NCBI RefSeq assembly: GCF_000265295.1
Contig: NC_018002.1
Location: 620,001 to 684,000 of the forward strand
DNA length: 64,000 nucleotides
Direction of reading: 5' to 3'
Origin: Sulfurospirillum barnesii SES-3
Lineage (GTDB): Bacteria > Campylobacterota > Campylobacteria > Campylobacterales > Sulfurospirillaceae
Shown here: positions 16,529 through 22,515 of the stretch, one piece after another
Numbering within the stretch: the first letter of the stretch is position 1
Layout of the letters: every line of letters begins with the position of its first letter
Notes under the pieces: model-generated
Seen by the model: only the letters and a program-made list of their open reading frames with translations
Databases searched by the model: none
Told to the model about the DNA's origin: nothing
Translations under genes and position numbers: made by a program

Positions 16529-16657
16529 ATAATTATTTAATTCTAAAATAGTTATCTTAATTTTTTCTAATTAATAAAGCAATAAATAAAATGTGATACC
16601 ATCTCTTTTCTTGTCTATAAAGATAATAAGACGTAGATAAAAAAGGGAGTGTATTGC

Positions 16658-17998
16658 ATGAAAATGTTTGTTTATCTCTGTTTTGTGGTTACGGTTTCAT
16701 TTGCCACTTCACCATTAAGTCTTCATGATGCTCTTGAAAAGCTCAAAAGCAATAACCACGAGATTGATATTGCAAAGCGGGATGAGCATATCAGTGCATT
16801 GGAAGCAGAAGTAGCTACTGCAAGTTCTTTAGGTTCTCTTGATTTAAGTCATAACTTGTTACGTAGCAATGATGCACTCAATATTTTTGGTTATAAACTA
16901 CAATCACGTGAAGCACGTTTTACAGATTTTGGGTTTCGACAGCTTGATATGAGTAACCCAAACTATGATGCCAAACCAAGTGATTTAAACGAGCCACCAA
17001 GTCGCAACCACTTCTCCACACAACTCACCTATAGCCTACCTCTTTATAGCGGCGGAAAAATCAGTTACTATAAAAAAATTACCAAAGCCTTGCATCATTT
17101 AAGTACACTCACACGAGAAGAGACAAGTTTACAAAAACAATACGAAGTCAAAAAAACATTTTATGACATTGCCCTTGTAAAAGATTACATCACAGATTTG
17201 GCTTTCATTGAAAAAACCATGCAAAAACTTTACACAAAAGCAGCGGCACTACGAGAAGAGGGATATGCTAAAAAAGTAGACCTTTTAGAAATTGAAACTC
17301 GTCTAGCAGAAGTTGGGCGTCATTATGAGAGTGCTAAAGCAAACGAAGCAATGCTTTATCATTATCTCTCGTTTTTGTTGGATGAAACGGTCAGTGAAAT
17401 TATCACACCCACGATTGAAACATTGTCTTTTGAGATTCATGAAGAGGCGATTTTAAACGATAATATTCGTGTGAAACAAGCAGCCCAAAATCTTGAAATA
17501 TCAAAAATGAACATTGCTTTAGAAGAGAGTGCTTATTATCCGCAAATTGGTGCGTTTGTACAGTATGGCAGTGCGGACAATCATTGGATGAATGATTTTT
17601 CAAAAAACGATGCGTATACGGTCGGCGTACAGATAAAATGGAATCTTTTTAATGGCGGTGCGGATAAAGCCAATGTTGAAAAAGCGCGTGTTCACAATTT
17701 AAAAGCGCAACAAGCTTTTATTTTGTCACAAAAAAGCCTGCTTTTACATGTAAAACAACTGCAAACAAAACTTCACACCTATGTATATGAAATTAAGAGT
17801 TTAAAAAAAGAGGTTGAATTAGCACAGATGATTTATGAAAATTATGCAGGACGTTATGAGCAAAAGCTTCTTTCGATTCATGAAGTGATGCTCAAACAAA
17901 CCGAAGCCTTGCAAGCGGTTTTAAAACTCAAAGAGGCACAAAATGCACATAACGATACGATCTTTGAACTTGAAAAAATAGCTAGGAGTACAGATTGA
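16658..17998 (+). CDS. TolC-type outer membrane efflux protein
   Basis: A 446-residue outer membrane factor with a signal peptide (MKMFVYLCFVVTVSFA). It has the duplicated coiled-coil/barrel repeats of the OEP family, including PLYSGGKISYYKK and the second-repeat WNLFNGGADKANVEKA. Such proteins form the trimeric exit duct of tripartite efflux pumps. ATG 16658 has GGGAG 9 bases upstream; a GTG at 16649 would overlap the ribosome site. It is the first gene of a TolC-adaptor-RND operon and is joined to the adaptor gene by a TGATG overlap. About 130 AT-rich bases upstream should contain the operon promoter. A TTTACATGTAAA at 17743 encodes Leu-His-Val-Lys. Confidence 0.9.
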   Translation: MKMFVYLCFVVTVSFATSPLSLHDALEKLKSNNHEIDIAKRDEHISALEAEVATASSLGSLDLSHNLLRSNDALNIFGYKLQSREARFTDFGFRQLDMSNPNYDAKPSDLNEPPSRNHFSTQLTYSLPLYSGGKISYYKKITKALHHLSTLTREETSLQKQYEVKKTFYDIALVKDYITDLAFIEKTMQKLYTKAAALREEGYAKKVDLLEIETRLAEVGRHYESAKANEAMLYHYLSFLLDETVSEIITPTIETLSFEIHEEAILNDNIRVKQAAQNLEISKMNIALEESAYYPQIGAFVQYGSADNHWMNDFSKNDAYTVGVQIKWNLFNGGADKANVEKARVHNLKAQQAFILSQKSLLLHVKQLQTKLHTYVYEIKSLKKEVELAQMIYENYAGRYEQKLLSIHEVMLKQTEALQAVLKLKEAQNAHNDTIFELEKIARSTD

Positions 17999-18804
17999 TG
18001 AACGGTTTACATGTAAAGATTTTTTTCCTCTTTCTTTTGAGTGTTTCGCTGAGTGCTGGTGAATTACTCTTAAGTGGTCGTGTGATTTCAGAGAATGAGA
18101 AAAGTATTAGCAGTCGCTATATGGGCTATGTTCAAGAAGTTCGAGTGAATGAGGGTGATGTCGTCAAAAAAGGTGATTTGCTTTATAAAATTGATGCTAA
18201 AGAGATTGATAGTGCAATTGAACAGAGCAATCTAGCCATTGCACAAGCAGAACTCTCTTATGAAATGTATCAGATGCAATATTCCAATGCAAAACTTAAT
18301 TTAGAACGTCACCAGCGTTTGTTAGAAAAAGATATGGTCTCACAATTTGAAGTTGAAAATTTACAACTTAATACCAACAATCTAAAAACCATGATGCAGA
18401 TTGCTCAAAAACAGATTGCAACAGCCAAACAAAAACGCCTAGAAGTAAAAAATCAATACCACTATTTGGAGGTGAGAGCGCCCAATGACAGTGTGATTAT
18501 TCAAAAAAATATTCACGCTGGAGAAATGGCATTGGCGGGTGTTCCTGCATTCATTCTTTCTGATATTTCCACACTTAAAATTAGTGCAGAGATTCCAGAA
18601 AGCTACCTTGGAAGTGTGAAAGTTGGGGATAAAGCTTCTGTTTGGATTGCATCCATTGGGTGTAAAAGTGAGGGTGTGGTTGAAGCGATTATTCCTACTT
18701 CAAACCCCATGACCCATGCATTTAGACTGAAAAGTAGTTTTACATGTAACGAGGCAACGGCATATCCTGGGATGTATGCAACCGTTACTTTAGGTGGATT
18801 GTGA
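17998..18804 (+). CDS. Periplasmic adaptor (HlyD/MFP) subunit of an RND efflux pump
   Basis: A 268-residue membrane-fusion protein with a signal peptide, a split biotinyl-lipoyl domain (YVQEVRVNEGDVVKKGDLLYKID and later RAPNDSVIIQKNIHAGE), a short alpha-hairpin between the halves and a beta-barrel domain. It is shorter than most RND adaptors (usually 350-400 residues) because the membrane-proximal domain is minimal. The start overlaps the tolC stop (TGATG), and the stop overlaps the first RND gene in the same way. A TTTACATGTAAA palindrome occupies 18006-18017, only eight bases after the start codon; a shorter core lies at 18740. Confidence 0.88.
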   Translation: MNGLHVKIFFLFLLSVSLSAGELLLSGRVISENEKSISSRYMGYVQEVRVNEGDVVKKGDLLYKIDAKEIDSAIEQSNLAIAQAELSYEMYQMQYSNAKLNLERHQRLLEKDMVSQFEVENLQLNTNNLKTMMQIAQKQIATAKQKRLEVKNQYHYLEVRAPNDSVIIQKNIHAGEMALAGVPAFILSDISTLKISAEIPESYLGSVKVGDKASVWIASIGCKSEGVVEAIIPTSNPMTHAFRLKSSFTCNEATAYPGMYATVTLGGL

Positions 18805-20402
18805 TGTCACGTTATAAAGAAAAATATTTGGCAGGGTATTTGGCACGTCTTTTTTTACGCAATCCTCTTACGATGATTTTAGGGGTGAGTTTAATTGCAT
18901 TGGGGGTGATAGCCCTTGTGATGATGCCTCGCGAAGAAGACCCCCAAATTTCAATTAGTGGTGGTGTGGTTATGGTAAGTCTACCAGGTGCGAGTGCCGC
19001 TGAAATTGAACAGGTGATCGTGAAGCCATTGGAGCGTCGTATTAAAGAGATTAAAGGCGTGGAGCACGTGTATGGCATTGCCAGCGATAATGTAGGGATT
19101 GTCAATGTAATGTATTATATTGGAGAGAATCGTGAGGCATCTAATTTAAAGCTTTACGACAAGGTGATGCAAAATATGAATCATTTACCAAAAGGGGCAT
19201 CAACACCCTTAGTGCGTCCATTGGATATTGATATAGATATTCCTATTTTATCTATAGCCTTTTATGCCAAAGATGCCAATGCGACAGATTCTGTAGCATT
19301 GTATAAACGCATAGAAGCTTTTCGTAATAGCTTAGGTACGATGCCAAATTTGGCGAAAACAGAACTAAAAGGGGAGCATAAGGAGCAGTTTACTATTGAG
19401 GTTGACCTCTTAAAGCTCTCAGGGTACCATTTGGGTTTAGATCAGATAAGCACAGCTTTAAATGCACTTACTACCCAACTTCCTGATATAACAAATCATA
19501 GCAAAGAGGGAAAATTGCTTGTTTTTGGCATCAAAAATGCCTTAGAAGATGTAAAAGATATTGAAAATGTCATTGTAGCGCACGTAGGTGGTTCGGCGAT
19601 TTACTTAAAAGATGTGGCACATGTCTCTTTAGGGTATGATGTTCAAAACCTAAAACAAGCTTATATTAGTTATAAAAATGCCGATGGCTCGTTTACGCCT
19701 TTACAAGAACAAGTCACCTTATGTATCTCAAAGCTAAAAGGCTCCAATGCCGTGGTGATTGCGGAGGATGTTTTGGCTCGGTTGGATGCGTACAAAAGTG
19801 AACTCTCTAAAGAAGGCATTGCTTATAGTGTAACACGAAACTATGGACAAAGAGCCAATGAAGCGGTCAATGAATTGGTCTTTCACTTGCTGATTTCTAT
19901 TGTGATTATTGCGCTTTTGTTGATTTTTATTTTGGGATGGAGAGAAGGGCTTATTGTTACGTTAACCGTACCTGCTATTTTAGCGATTACTATTTTTATT
20001 GCGTATATGAGCGGTCAAACGATTAATCGTATTACGCTTTTTGCATTTTTATTAAGCCTTGGGCTTTTGGTCGATGATGTGATTGTTGTTATTGAAAATA
20101 TTCACCGTCACTTACACAGTAAATTTGCGAAAGATACATCTATGGGTGAGTTACTCATTGAAGCCACCGATGAGATTGGAGCTCCTACCAATTTGGCTAC
20201 CATAGCCATTATTTTAACCATGGTTCCTATGGCATTTGTAGGGCAAATGATGGGAGAATTTATGAAACCTATCCCTTTAAATGTTCCTGTTGCCATGACC
20301 GCTTCACTTTTAATTGCCTATATTTTTACTCCATACCTTGCTTTAAAACTACTTAAAAAGCCAAAAAAACATTCAGGAGCGCACCATGATGAAACGCTTT
20401 GA
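18804..20402 (+). CDS. RND efflux transporter, N-terminal half (TM1-TM6)
   Basis: A 532-residue protein matching the first half of an AcrB-type pump: TM1, the first porter/docking loop (PGASAAEIEQVIVKPLERRI is typical), then TM2-TM6. The proton-relay aspartate pair is visible in TM4 (GLLVDDVIVVIENI). It ends in a hydrophilic tail right after TM6, exactly where the cytoplasmic linker to TM7 begins. The second half is encoded by the next gene in another frame, with its own ribosome site. GTG 18801 is an alternative start. It forms one operon with tolC and the adaptor; substrate unknown. Confidence 0.88.
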   Translation: MSRYKEKYLAGYLARLFLRNPLTMILGVSLIALGVIALVMMPREEDPQISISGGVVMVSLPGASAAEIEQVIVKPLERRIKEIKGVEHVYGIASDNVGIVNVMYYIGENREASNLKLYDKVMQNMNHLPKGASTPLVRPLDIDIDIPILSIAFYAKDANATDSVALYKRIEAFRNSLGTMPNLAKTELKGEHKEQFTIEVDLLKLSGYHLGLDQISTALNALTTQLPDITNHSKEGKLLVFGIKNALEDVKDIENVIVAHVGGSAIYLKDVAHVSLGYDVQNLKQAYISYKNADGSFTPLQEQVTLCISKLKGSNAVVIAEDVLARLDAYKSELSKEGIAYSVTRNYGQRANEAVNELVFHLLISIVIIALLLIFILGWREGLIVTLTVPAILAITIFIAYMSGQTINRITLFAFLLSLGLLVDDVIVVIENIHRHLHSKFAKDTSMGELLIEATDEIGAPTNLATIAIILTMVPMAFVGQMMGEFMKPIPLNVPVAMTASLLIAYIFTPYLALKLLKKPKKHSGAHHDETL

Positions 20403-22044
20403 GCAGTTTATTCATGACATTTTACTGGATGTACGCAAAAAACGATTGGTTTTGTTACTAACAGTGTTGGCATTTAGTGCATCTTTGATGATGTTTCCTA
20501 CCCATGCGGTTCTTGCTAAAATGCTTCCCTCTAAAAGCACCAATACTTTCTCCATCTATGTGGATTTACCCAAAGGTAGTTCTGTTTTTCAAACACAGCA
20601 GGTCAATCAATGCGTGGTTGCTTTCTTGCAAAAGGAACAAGAGGTGCAAAACATTGAAGTCTTTAATGGGATGGGCTCTCCATTGGATTACGCAGGGTTG
20701 GTGAAAGGCTCTGGTTTTAAAAGCGGTGAGCATGTAAGTGAAATTGTAGTCAACCTAAGTGATGCCCACGAAAGAGATGAACGCTCCTATGCTATGGTGC
20801 ACCGTTTGCGTCCTATTATTCAAAAAAGCTGTGAGCCATTGGTGGAAAAAACATCTATCAAAATGGTAGAACAACCAGCCGGCCCTCCGACACAAGCAGC
20901 TCTTGTAATTGAGCTTTACGGTGAAAAAAGTACATCGCTCACTCCTTTGGCTGAAAAAATTAAAGAGATTCTCTCACAACATCGTGATTTAGCGGATGTG
21001 GACGTTTTGTTTGATGAAATTTATCCCAAACTCTCTTTGCGCATTGATCATGAAAAAGCTCTGAGGGCAGGATTGAGTATAGAATACATTCATAAAATGC
21101 TCTATTTGGCGTTTGAGGGTATGGAGGTCAGTTATAAAAACAGTGAAAATTCGCCTTCTCAAATCCCCATTTTTGTAGTTTTAAGTGAAAATTCCAAGCG
21201 CTTAGCACAGCTTAGCAAAGAGGCATTGTATGCAAAACTCACATCGTTTCGTTTACGAAATACACAAGGTATGTTGGTGCCACTAAGTGAAGTGGTGCAC
21301 ATTGATGAGGTTTTTTCAACCCCTACCATTATGTCAAAGAACCTTCAAACCATGGTAAGCATTGTCGCTGAGGCAGATTTGGTGTCTCAGGTCTACCCAC
21401 TCTTAGATGTTCGAAGCACCATTAAAGAGCGCCTCAGTGAGTTCTACGAGATTCAAAACACACATTTGTTTGATTTAAAGCTAAAAGATAAACGCAGTGG
21501 GGAAGTCTTTGAATTGGTTTTTGATGGTGAGATGAAAGTGAGCATGGATACGTTTAGGGATTTAGGTGGTGCTTTTATTGCGGCGTTGGTGCTGATTTTC
21601 TTATTGATGGTTGTGTATTATAAAAGTTTTGCGATTGCGGGAATTGTTCTTTTAGGAAGTTTTCTCTCTATTATTGGGGTTATTTTTGGGCATTGGTTGA
21701 TGGATCTCTTCTCCAAAGAGACTTTCTTTTTAACAGCAACGTCTCTGATTGGATTTATTGCTTTAATGGGCATTAGTTCACGTAATTCTTTATTGTTGAT
21801 TGATTTTACAGAGGCAATGATGAAAGTGGGAATTGAGAAAAAACGTGCCATAGCGCTTGCGAGTGCAACACGCTCAAAGCCTATTTTTCTTACCGCAGCA
21901 GCGATTATTTTAGCCAGTACATTGTTAGCGACAGACCCTATTTTTGGAGGGTTGGGGGTAGCCCTTATTTTTGGAACCATTGCAGCGGTGATTGTCTCAT
22001 TGATAGTCGTGCCTGTACTGATGGATAATACAAAAGCAATTTAA
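20386..22044 (+). CDS. RND efflux transporter, C-terminal half (TM7-TM12)
   Basis: A 552-residue protein beginning with an amphipathic helix and TM7, followed by the second periplasmic loop (with QPAGPPTQAALVIELYGE) and TM8-TM12. TM10 has SSRNSLLLIDF, with Arg where AcrB has the proton-relay Lys. AGGAG at 20375-20379 stands 6 bases before ATG 20386. The gene overlaps its partner by 17 bases in a different frame, which argues for a natural split rather than damage. Together the halves total 1084 residues, a full RND pump. A palindrome-based hairpin follows the stop. Confidence 0.88.
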   Translation: MMKRFEQFIHDILLDVRKKRLVLLLTVLAFSASLMMFPTHAVLAKMLPSKSTNTFSIYVDLPKGSSVFQTQQVNQCVVAFLQKEQEVQNIEVFNGMGSPLDYAGLVKGSGFKSGEHVSEIVVNLSDAHERDERSYAMVHRLRPIIQKSCEPLVEKTSIKMVEQPAGPPTQAALVIELYGEKSTSLTPLAEKIKEILSQHRDLADVDVLFDEIYPKLSLRIDHEKALRAGLSIEYIHKMLYLAFEGMEVSYKNSENSPSQIPIFVVLSENSKRLAQLSKEALYAKLTSFRLRNTQGMLVPLSEVVHIDEVFSTPTIMSKNLQTMVSIVAEADLVSQVYPLLDVRSTIKERLSEFYEIQNTHLFDLKLKDKRSGEVFELVFDGEMKVSMDTFRDLGGAFIAALVLIFLLMVVYYKSFAIAGIVLLGSFLSIIGVIFGHWLMDLFSKETFFLTATSLIGFIALMGISSRNSLLLIDFTEAMMKVGIEKKRAIALASATRSKPIFLTAAAIILASTLLATDPIFGGLGVALIFGTIAAVIVSLIVVPVLMDNTKAI

Positions 22045-22050
22045 AATACC

Positions 22051-22091
22051 TTTACATGTAAAACGCTAGCCTTTATCGTTTTACATGTAAA
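22051..22091. terminator. Terminator-like hairpin from two TTTACATGTAAA copies after the efflux operon
   Basis: Copies at 22051-22062 and 22080-22091 face each other and extend into a perfect 15-bp stem (TTTACATGTAAAACG against CGTTTTACATGTAAA) with an 11-base loop, 6 bases after the RND stop codon. The downstream arm also forms the last codons of a minus-strand 54-residue gene, so the structure serves two convergent genes. Confidence 0.7.
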
Positions 22092-22237
22092 AACTTTCGA
22101 CGTGCGAACATTAAAAGTCGCATAATACGATGAGAAAATAGTTTCTTACTCAACCCCATTTTTCGGCAATTTCCTTCTTTTAAACACTCAAAAACCTCTT
22201 CAAGTGCTAGCTTTTCACTCACGGATAGATTTGTCAT
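22073..22237 (-). CDS. 54-residue basic protein coupled to an HTH regulator
   Basis: A short gene on the minus strand whose ATG overlaps the stop codon of the upstream HTH gene (ATGA at 22234-22237), the normal sign of translational coupling in this genome. The product begins MTNLSVSEKLALEEVFECL, is rich in Lys/Arg in its second half, and ends Phe-Leu-His-Val-Lys-Arg, encoded by a TTTACATGTAAA copy. Predicted as two helices with no signal peptide or membrane segment. I do not recognise the family. Its 3' end lies inside the shared terminator hairpin. Confidence 0.6.
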   Translation of the reverse strand: MTNLSVSEKLALEEVFECLKEGNCRKMGLSKKLFSHRIMRLLMFARRKFLHVKR

Positions 22238-22515
22238 ACCGCCCCTTTTTGCCCATCATTAATTTTACGCACTAACCTTACAATATCTGCATCATTAAGC
22301 ATGCCTAACATATTAAAAACCACGGGAATTGCCATAGGAGCACTGCTACCAAGACGCCACTCTTGATAGGTTCGCATGGAAATACCACAGGTCTCTGCCA
22401 TCTTTTTTTGAGAAATTTTTTTCCCCATATTTTCAGCTTCAATGGCATTGTGCAAAAGATTAATAATATCGTTGGTTTTCATTCGTAAGATTGTAGTTAA
22501 AAATGTATTAAACAT
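22234..22515 (-). CDS. Small XRE-like helix-turn-helix DNA-binding protein
   Basis: A protein of up to 93 residues with an HTH core in the segment KISQKKMAETCGISMRTYQE, where GISMRTYQEWR looks like the recognition helix. ATG 22515 gives 93 residues; ATG 22482 gives 82 (MKTNDIINLLHNA) and is plausible, since neither has a clear ribosome site. It forms a two-gene operon with the 54-residue protein. A 20-base inverted repeat (22540-22559) just upstream overlaps the likely promoter and could be its own operator, which is inference. Confidence 0.75.
   Translation of the reverse strand: MFNTFLTTILRMKTNDIINLLHNAIEAENMGKKISQKKMAETCGISMRTYQEWRLGSSAPMAIPVVFNMLGMLNDADIVRLVRKINDGQKGAV

Follow-up and report, generated by a model that had tools for sequence, protein, structure and literature searches.

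Is an RND efflux permease that is encoded in two overlapping reading frames a broken copy of a single gene, or do its halves form a stable pump of two subunits? The question is raised by a locus of Sulfurospirillum barnesii SES-3, lying within a window of 64 kb (i.e., the whole stretch of DNA that was analysed), for which a preliminary description had favored the second answer. We consider it highly probable that the product of this locus is a tripartite RND exporter, driven by protons, in which the two halves, here called RND-A and RND-B, pair as a heterodimer to form each permease protomer, and that the gene was split once and has since been inherited in its two-gene form.

The four genes of the locus run in the order TolC-family channel, RND adaptor, RND-A and RND-B on the plus strand (16649-22044; Table 1), such that an adaptor and an outer membrane channel share the operon with the permease, as in tripartite efflux systems. 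The channel gene has 449 codons when counted from a GTG, with a later ATG as a possible true start, and it overlaps the adaptor gene, which scores 114.5 against the RND_mfp model (cut-off 94.9) and is in turn overlapped by the start of RND-A. That start is either the ATG at 18804, as in the preliminary description, or a GTG at 18801 that overlaps the adaptor stop codon. Although permeases of the RND superfamily are usually, if not invariably, single polypeptides of about 1000 aa, RND-A has only 532 (or 533) aa and RND-B 552 aa. The single-contig genome of 2.51 Mb also holds five full-length RND permeases (1010-1043 aa) elsewhere, as well as weak ACR_tran matches at G000:C1:1661736-1663111, whose reading frames span 555 and 336 aa and are presumably SecD and SecF.

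Table 1. Coordinates, within the window, of the split RND locus and its principal features.
Feature	Position	Strand	Basis or remark
TolC-family outer membrane channel gene	16649..17998	+	Pfam OEP (3.1e-34); ORF
Short RND-type periplasmic adaptor (membrane fusion) gene, 269 aa	17995..18804	+	TIGR01730 RND_mfp; Pfam HlyD_D23
RND-A, N-terminal half permease (TM1-TM6, first periplasmic domain)	18801 or 18804..20402	+	PF00873; AF2 model
RND-A Asp-Asp in TM4 (AcrB D407 D408)	20073..20078	+	AcrB alignment
AGGAG ribosome binding site of RND-B	20375..20379	+	Sequence; ATG six bases further on
A/B overlap, 17 nt	20386..20402	+	RND-B in +1 frame relative to RND-A
RND-B, C-terminal half permease (Ialpha, TM7-TM12, second periplasmic domain)	20386..22044	+	PF00873; AF2 model
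RND-B Arg466 in TM10 (AcrB K940 position)	21781..21783	+	AcrB alignment
RND-B Arg496 to Thr503 (AcrB R971 and T978)	21871..21894	+	AcrB alignment

Together, the two chains span the full length of the PF00873 (ACR_tran) profile of 1021 positions: RND-A matches its first half (about 2-498; E 1.4e-74, 251.9 bits) and RND-B its second (about 523-1016; E 1.9e-43, 148.8 bits), each against a cut-off of 28 bits. When folded as separate single chains with AF2, RND-A (pLDDT 81.9) found its best PDB match in residues 2-500 of MdtF (Z 27.3, VIA-align), and RND-B (pLDDT 80.9) in residues 523-1033 of AcrB (Z 24.1). Each model contains six TM helices, with a large periplasmic domain after the first of them, i.e., one complete RND repeat per chain, and RND-B additionally contains the amphipathic helix Ialpha (residues 2-14). 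Because RND-A ends at about residue 518 of E. coli K-12 AcrB and RND-B begins at about residue 519, Ialpha belongs to the second chain. The earlier claims that the permease is divided at the TM6-TM7 linker and that both halves keep complete six-helix units were thus borne out, as were the 17-base overlap in different frames (RND-A ending at the TGA at 20400-20402, RND-B starting at the ATG at 20386) and the ribosome binding site of RND-B.

Viewed in a single genome, this +1 overlap, which adjoins an A7 tract (20363-20369), has the look of a homopolymer indel, either a sequencing error or a recent inactivating mutation in one strain. Against this, all intact orthologues that were read show the split, in many genera and families, complete genomes among them, and at differing junctions, so that we regard such an accident as vanishingly improbable. 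In 60 related genomes, matches with 48-84% identity over the length of RND-B lie in open frames of about 550-620 aa, and a second set of matches, with 38-42% identity, lies in frames of 1076-1171 aa; orthologues are split down to about 45-48% identity. Wherever the upstream sequence sufficed, RND-A lay directly before RND-B on the same strand. One exception to intactness (L011/L040), in which RND-A is interrupted some 300 nt short of its end, comes from a low-coverage MAG and was put down to the assembly or to a local defect. Programmed frameshifting or transcriptional slippage could instead join the frames into one full-length protein, since the RND-B frame of S. barnesii is open for 39 nt upstream of its own ATG, across the A7 tract, where a +1 event could fuse them. 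But the A7 tract is not kept even in the nearest relatives, and among 87 Campylobacterota junctions the frame of B relative to A is 0 (with a stop between), +1 or +2 in 5, 28 and 54 cases, respectively; an in-frame stop stands directly before the RND-B start in nine, the RND-B frame opens at most 3 nt upstream of the start in 21, and an SD-like motif precedes RND-B in 85. Given that frame relations differ and that stops precede some RND-B starts, a fused product made by frameshifting cannot be the general rule, and we consider this explanation extremely unlikely. Frameshift, sequencing error and programmed slippage were accordingly rejected on the variety of junctions. As judged by sequence comparison, the recurrence of the split in every intact orthologue is more than chance.

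The genes overlap in 77 of the 87 junctions, and the spacing between them ranges from -38 to +9, the commonest values being -4 (30 junctions) and -1 (21), which are typical of translational coupling; RND-A and RND-B of S. barnesii would likewise be coupled. Purifying selection acts on both genes (dN/dS of 0.08 for RND-A and 0.07 for RND-B relative to the nearest relative, L039). Some members of the group differ in detail: in L117, L118 and L124, the RND-B frame is open for 213-294 nt upstream of its start, well into the 3' end of RND-A; split copies in family f6 (L122, L125 and L126) are longer (A, 571-574 aa; B, 603-632 aa); and in G242, G256 and G295 the RND-A match falls into two pieces with a break near residue 291, which suggests an insertion in its first periplasmic domain.

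Matches at 1e-60 or better occurred in 163 of 397 sampled Campylobacterota genomes; ten of these count, by their score or reading frame, as single-chain, leaving the split type in about 153, some of them inferred from score. In two trees (54 and 38 rows), all split pairs fell with full support into one clade (bootstrap 100/SH-aLRT 100). Its sister group is formed by the single-chain homologues of Campylobacterota, and it branches from within a wider set of relatives from Pseudomonadota, Cyanobacteriota and Bacteroidota, likewise single-chain. This nesting of a single split clade reflects one old gene fission, which we assign to an ancestor within Campylobacterota; the cut would have been made just upstream of Ialpha, and the two-gene form inherited since, its junction drifting. 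No re-fusion was seen inside the split clade among the sampled rows of either tree, and the hits opened from outside Campylobacterota were all single-chain, including one unannotated record that reads as fused. The gene order A-B-efp recurs in families f1, f4, f6 and f19, and the longer order serA-TolC-adaptor-A-B-efp is also found on a Sulfurovum mangrovi plasmid record (in which NCBI labels each half an 'efflux RND transporter permease subunit'), a pattern that fits vertical descent. A member of family f11 (L130) is placed inside the branch of the family of S. barnesii itself, possibly as the result of transfer. The reading as a stable pump encoded by two genes, not as a frameshift, which the preliminary description had proposed to check in related genomes, is therefore upheld by conservation of the split, variety of frames, purifying selection and a single clade.

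Whether the two products work together can be judged in part from the residues that relay protons between the two repeats of AcrB, namely D407 and D408 in TM4, K940 in TM10, and R971 and T978 in TM11 (PMC4359379). By alignment to AcrB, these positions were read in 81 split pairs and 22 fused relatives. D407, on RND-A, and R971 and T978, on RND-B, are kept in all 81 pairs, and the K940 position is Arg in all 81 pairs and all 22 fused relatives. The D408 position is more variable (D in 25 pairs, A in 55 and S in one), with S. barnesii retaining both aspartates; because D408 is essential in AcrB, its replacement by Ala in 55 of 81 pairs implies that proton coupling may differ from that of AcrB. 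Since the relay is divided between the chains and complete in neither, each protomer should consist of one A and one B.

In principle, RND proteins of half size with six helices are known, which would allow A and B to be separate homo-oligomeric transporters, or just one of them to be used. The division of invariant relay residues between the chains, the similar purifying selection on both genes and their constant adjacency speak against this possibility, and we hold it to be very unlikely. Alternatively, the pump might be decaying, having been split once its full function was no longer needed, and the loss of D408 from most members and the long stem branch ahead of the split clade could be read in this way; yet low dN/dS, invariant relay positions and retention in so many of the sampled genomes make decay extremely improbable. 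The A-B heterodimer, formed from RND-A (TM1-6) and RND-B (Ialpha and TM7-12), would be the simplest working unit, and a pump built from two subunits, not from a single chain, is very probable. By analogy, three A-B pairs (i.e., a 3:3 stoichiometry) would be expected in each trimer-like permease, and the pair would act in transport. Of the earlier claim of a stable two-subunit pump, the two-gene form stood; physical assembly into one complex is what we infer from the divided relay. The accompanying suggestion that the split reversed the internal duplication of RND proteins did not hold, in that a fusion was undone instead: the two halves have diverged and are not interchangeable as subunits, unlike the copies in a six-helix homodimer. 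Beyond S. barnesii, it seems likely that these pairs constitute a phylum-scale class of tripartite RND pumps, arisen by one ancient fission, with an A-B heterodimer protomer (3A:3B) and a relay mostly lacking the second TM4 Asp, in which separate chains may allow motions of the repeats, or regulation, unavailable to a covalent linker.

The window also contains a highly iterated palindrome, TTTACATGTAAA, reminiscent of cyanobacterial HIP1. It occurs 23 times in the window, against 0.01 copies expected (including 17743-17754, 18006-18017, 22051-22062 and 22080-22091), and 582 times in the genome, where the reversed control occurs 0 times. Each of 23 genomes of the same genus has 14-792 copies, other members of the family have 0-346, and elsewhere in the order there are almost none. 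The two copies just after RND-B form a strong hairpin (22051-22091; RNA fold z -6.15) that is possibly the transcript end. Between RND-B and efp, an ORF of 93 aa on the minus strand (22234-22515) resembles, by eye, a helix-turn-helix protein.

Among solved structures, the closest sequences to RND-B are MexK (E 3e-23) and TriC (E 1e-15; entry 6vej, which we take to be TriC), both of which, unlike RND-A/RND-B, are single polypeptides of about 1020 aa. In that MexK shares the Arg at the K940 position, the use of K940, together with R971 and T978, as a criterion for the HAE-1 (AcrB-type) family (PMC2891726) may be too strict; with Arg in every pair, the split pump would not be filed there, although R971 and T978 are invariant. 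The pair D407 and D408, also expected of HAE-1 members, is complete in S. barnesii, with D408 retained in 25 of the 81 split pairs. The sister clade is that of the single-chain Campylobacterota homologues (L079-L086 and L151-L158), which are 43-49% identical to RND-A and 37-42% to RND-B and have R940, R971 and T978 as in the split pairs, but are encoded by one gene of about 1030-1130 aa. MdtBC resembles RND-A/RND-B in being a permease from two different genes, i.e., a heterotrimer of two different products (PMC8277102); however, each of these is a full-length 12-TM protein, and no protomer is split. SecD/SecF, also of the RND superfamily, exist either fused into a single chain or as two chains with six TM helices each (PMC8277102), but they are accessories of protein translocation without an adaptor or TolC partner, and are not close in sequence.

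Within a partial open-access library, we found no paper on natural split RND pumps, and a natural, ancient, phylum-scale tripartite pump with a split protomer appears to be undescribed there; its component parts, the split form in an engineered homologue and the annotation of both genes as permease subunits are already known. In the text consulted on the AreABC, AreDEF, AreGHI and EP systems of Aliarcobacter butzleri, none of them was linked to this pump. Length filters in surveys, one of which dropped hits under 852 aa (PMC10872679), would miss such pumps. The many diverged A-B pairs now on offer could serve for testing coupling between repeats and proton relays with a single Asp. The closest precedent is MexB of P. 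aeruginosa, which was reportedly functional when expressed in two parts, divided where Ialpha has its N-terminal end (Eda, Yoneyama, Nakae 2003, via PMC4359379), so that, as with SecD/SecF, halves working in trans are not new in principle. The S. barnesii pair belongs to a different RND subfamily but is cut at the same place, and, whereas split MexB is a laboratory construct, this split is natural, old and inherited through a large part of a phylum. It is a natural counterpart of engineered MexB, and suggests that the covalent linker between TM6 and Ialpha of an RND pump is dispensable over long evolutionary time.
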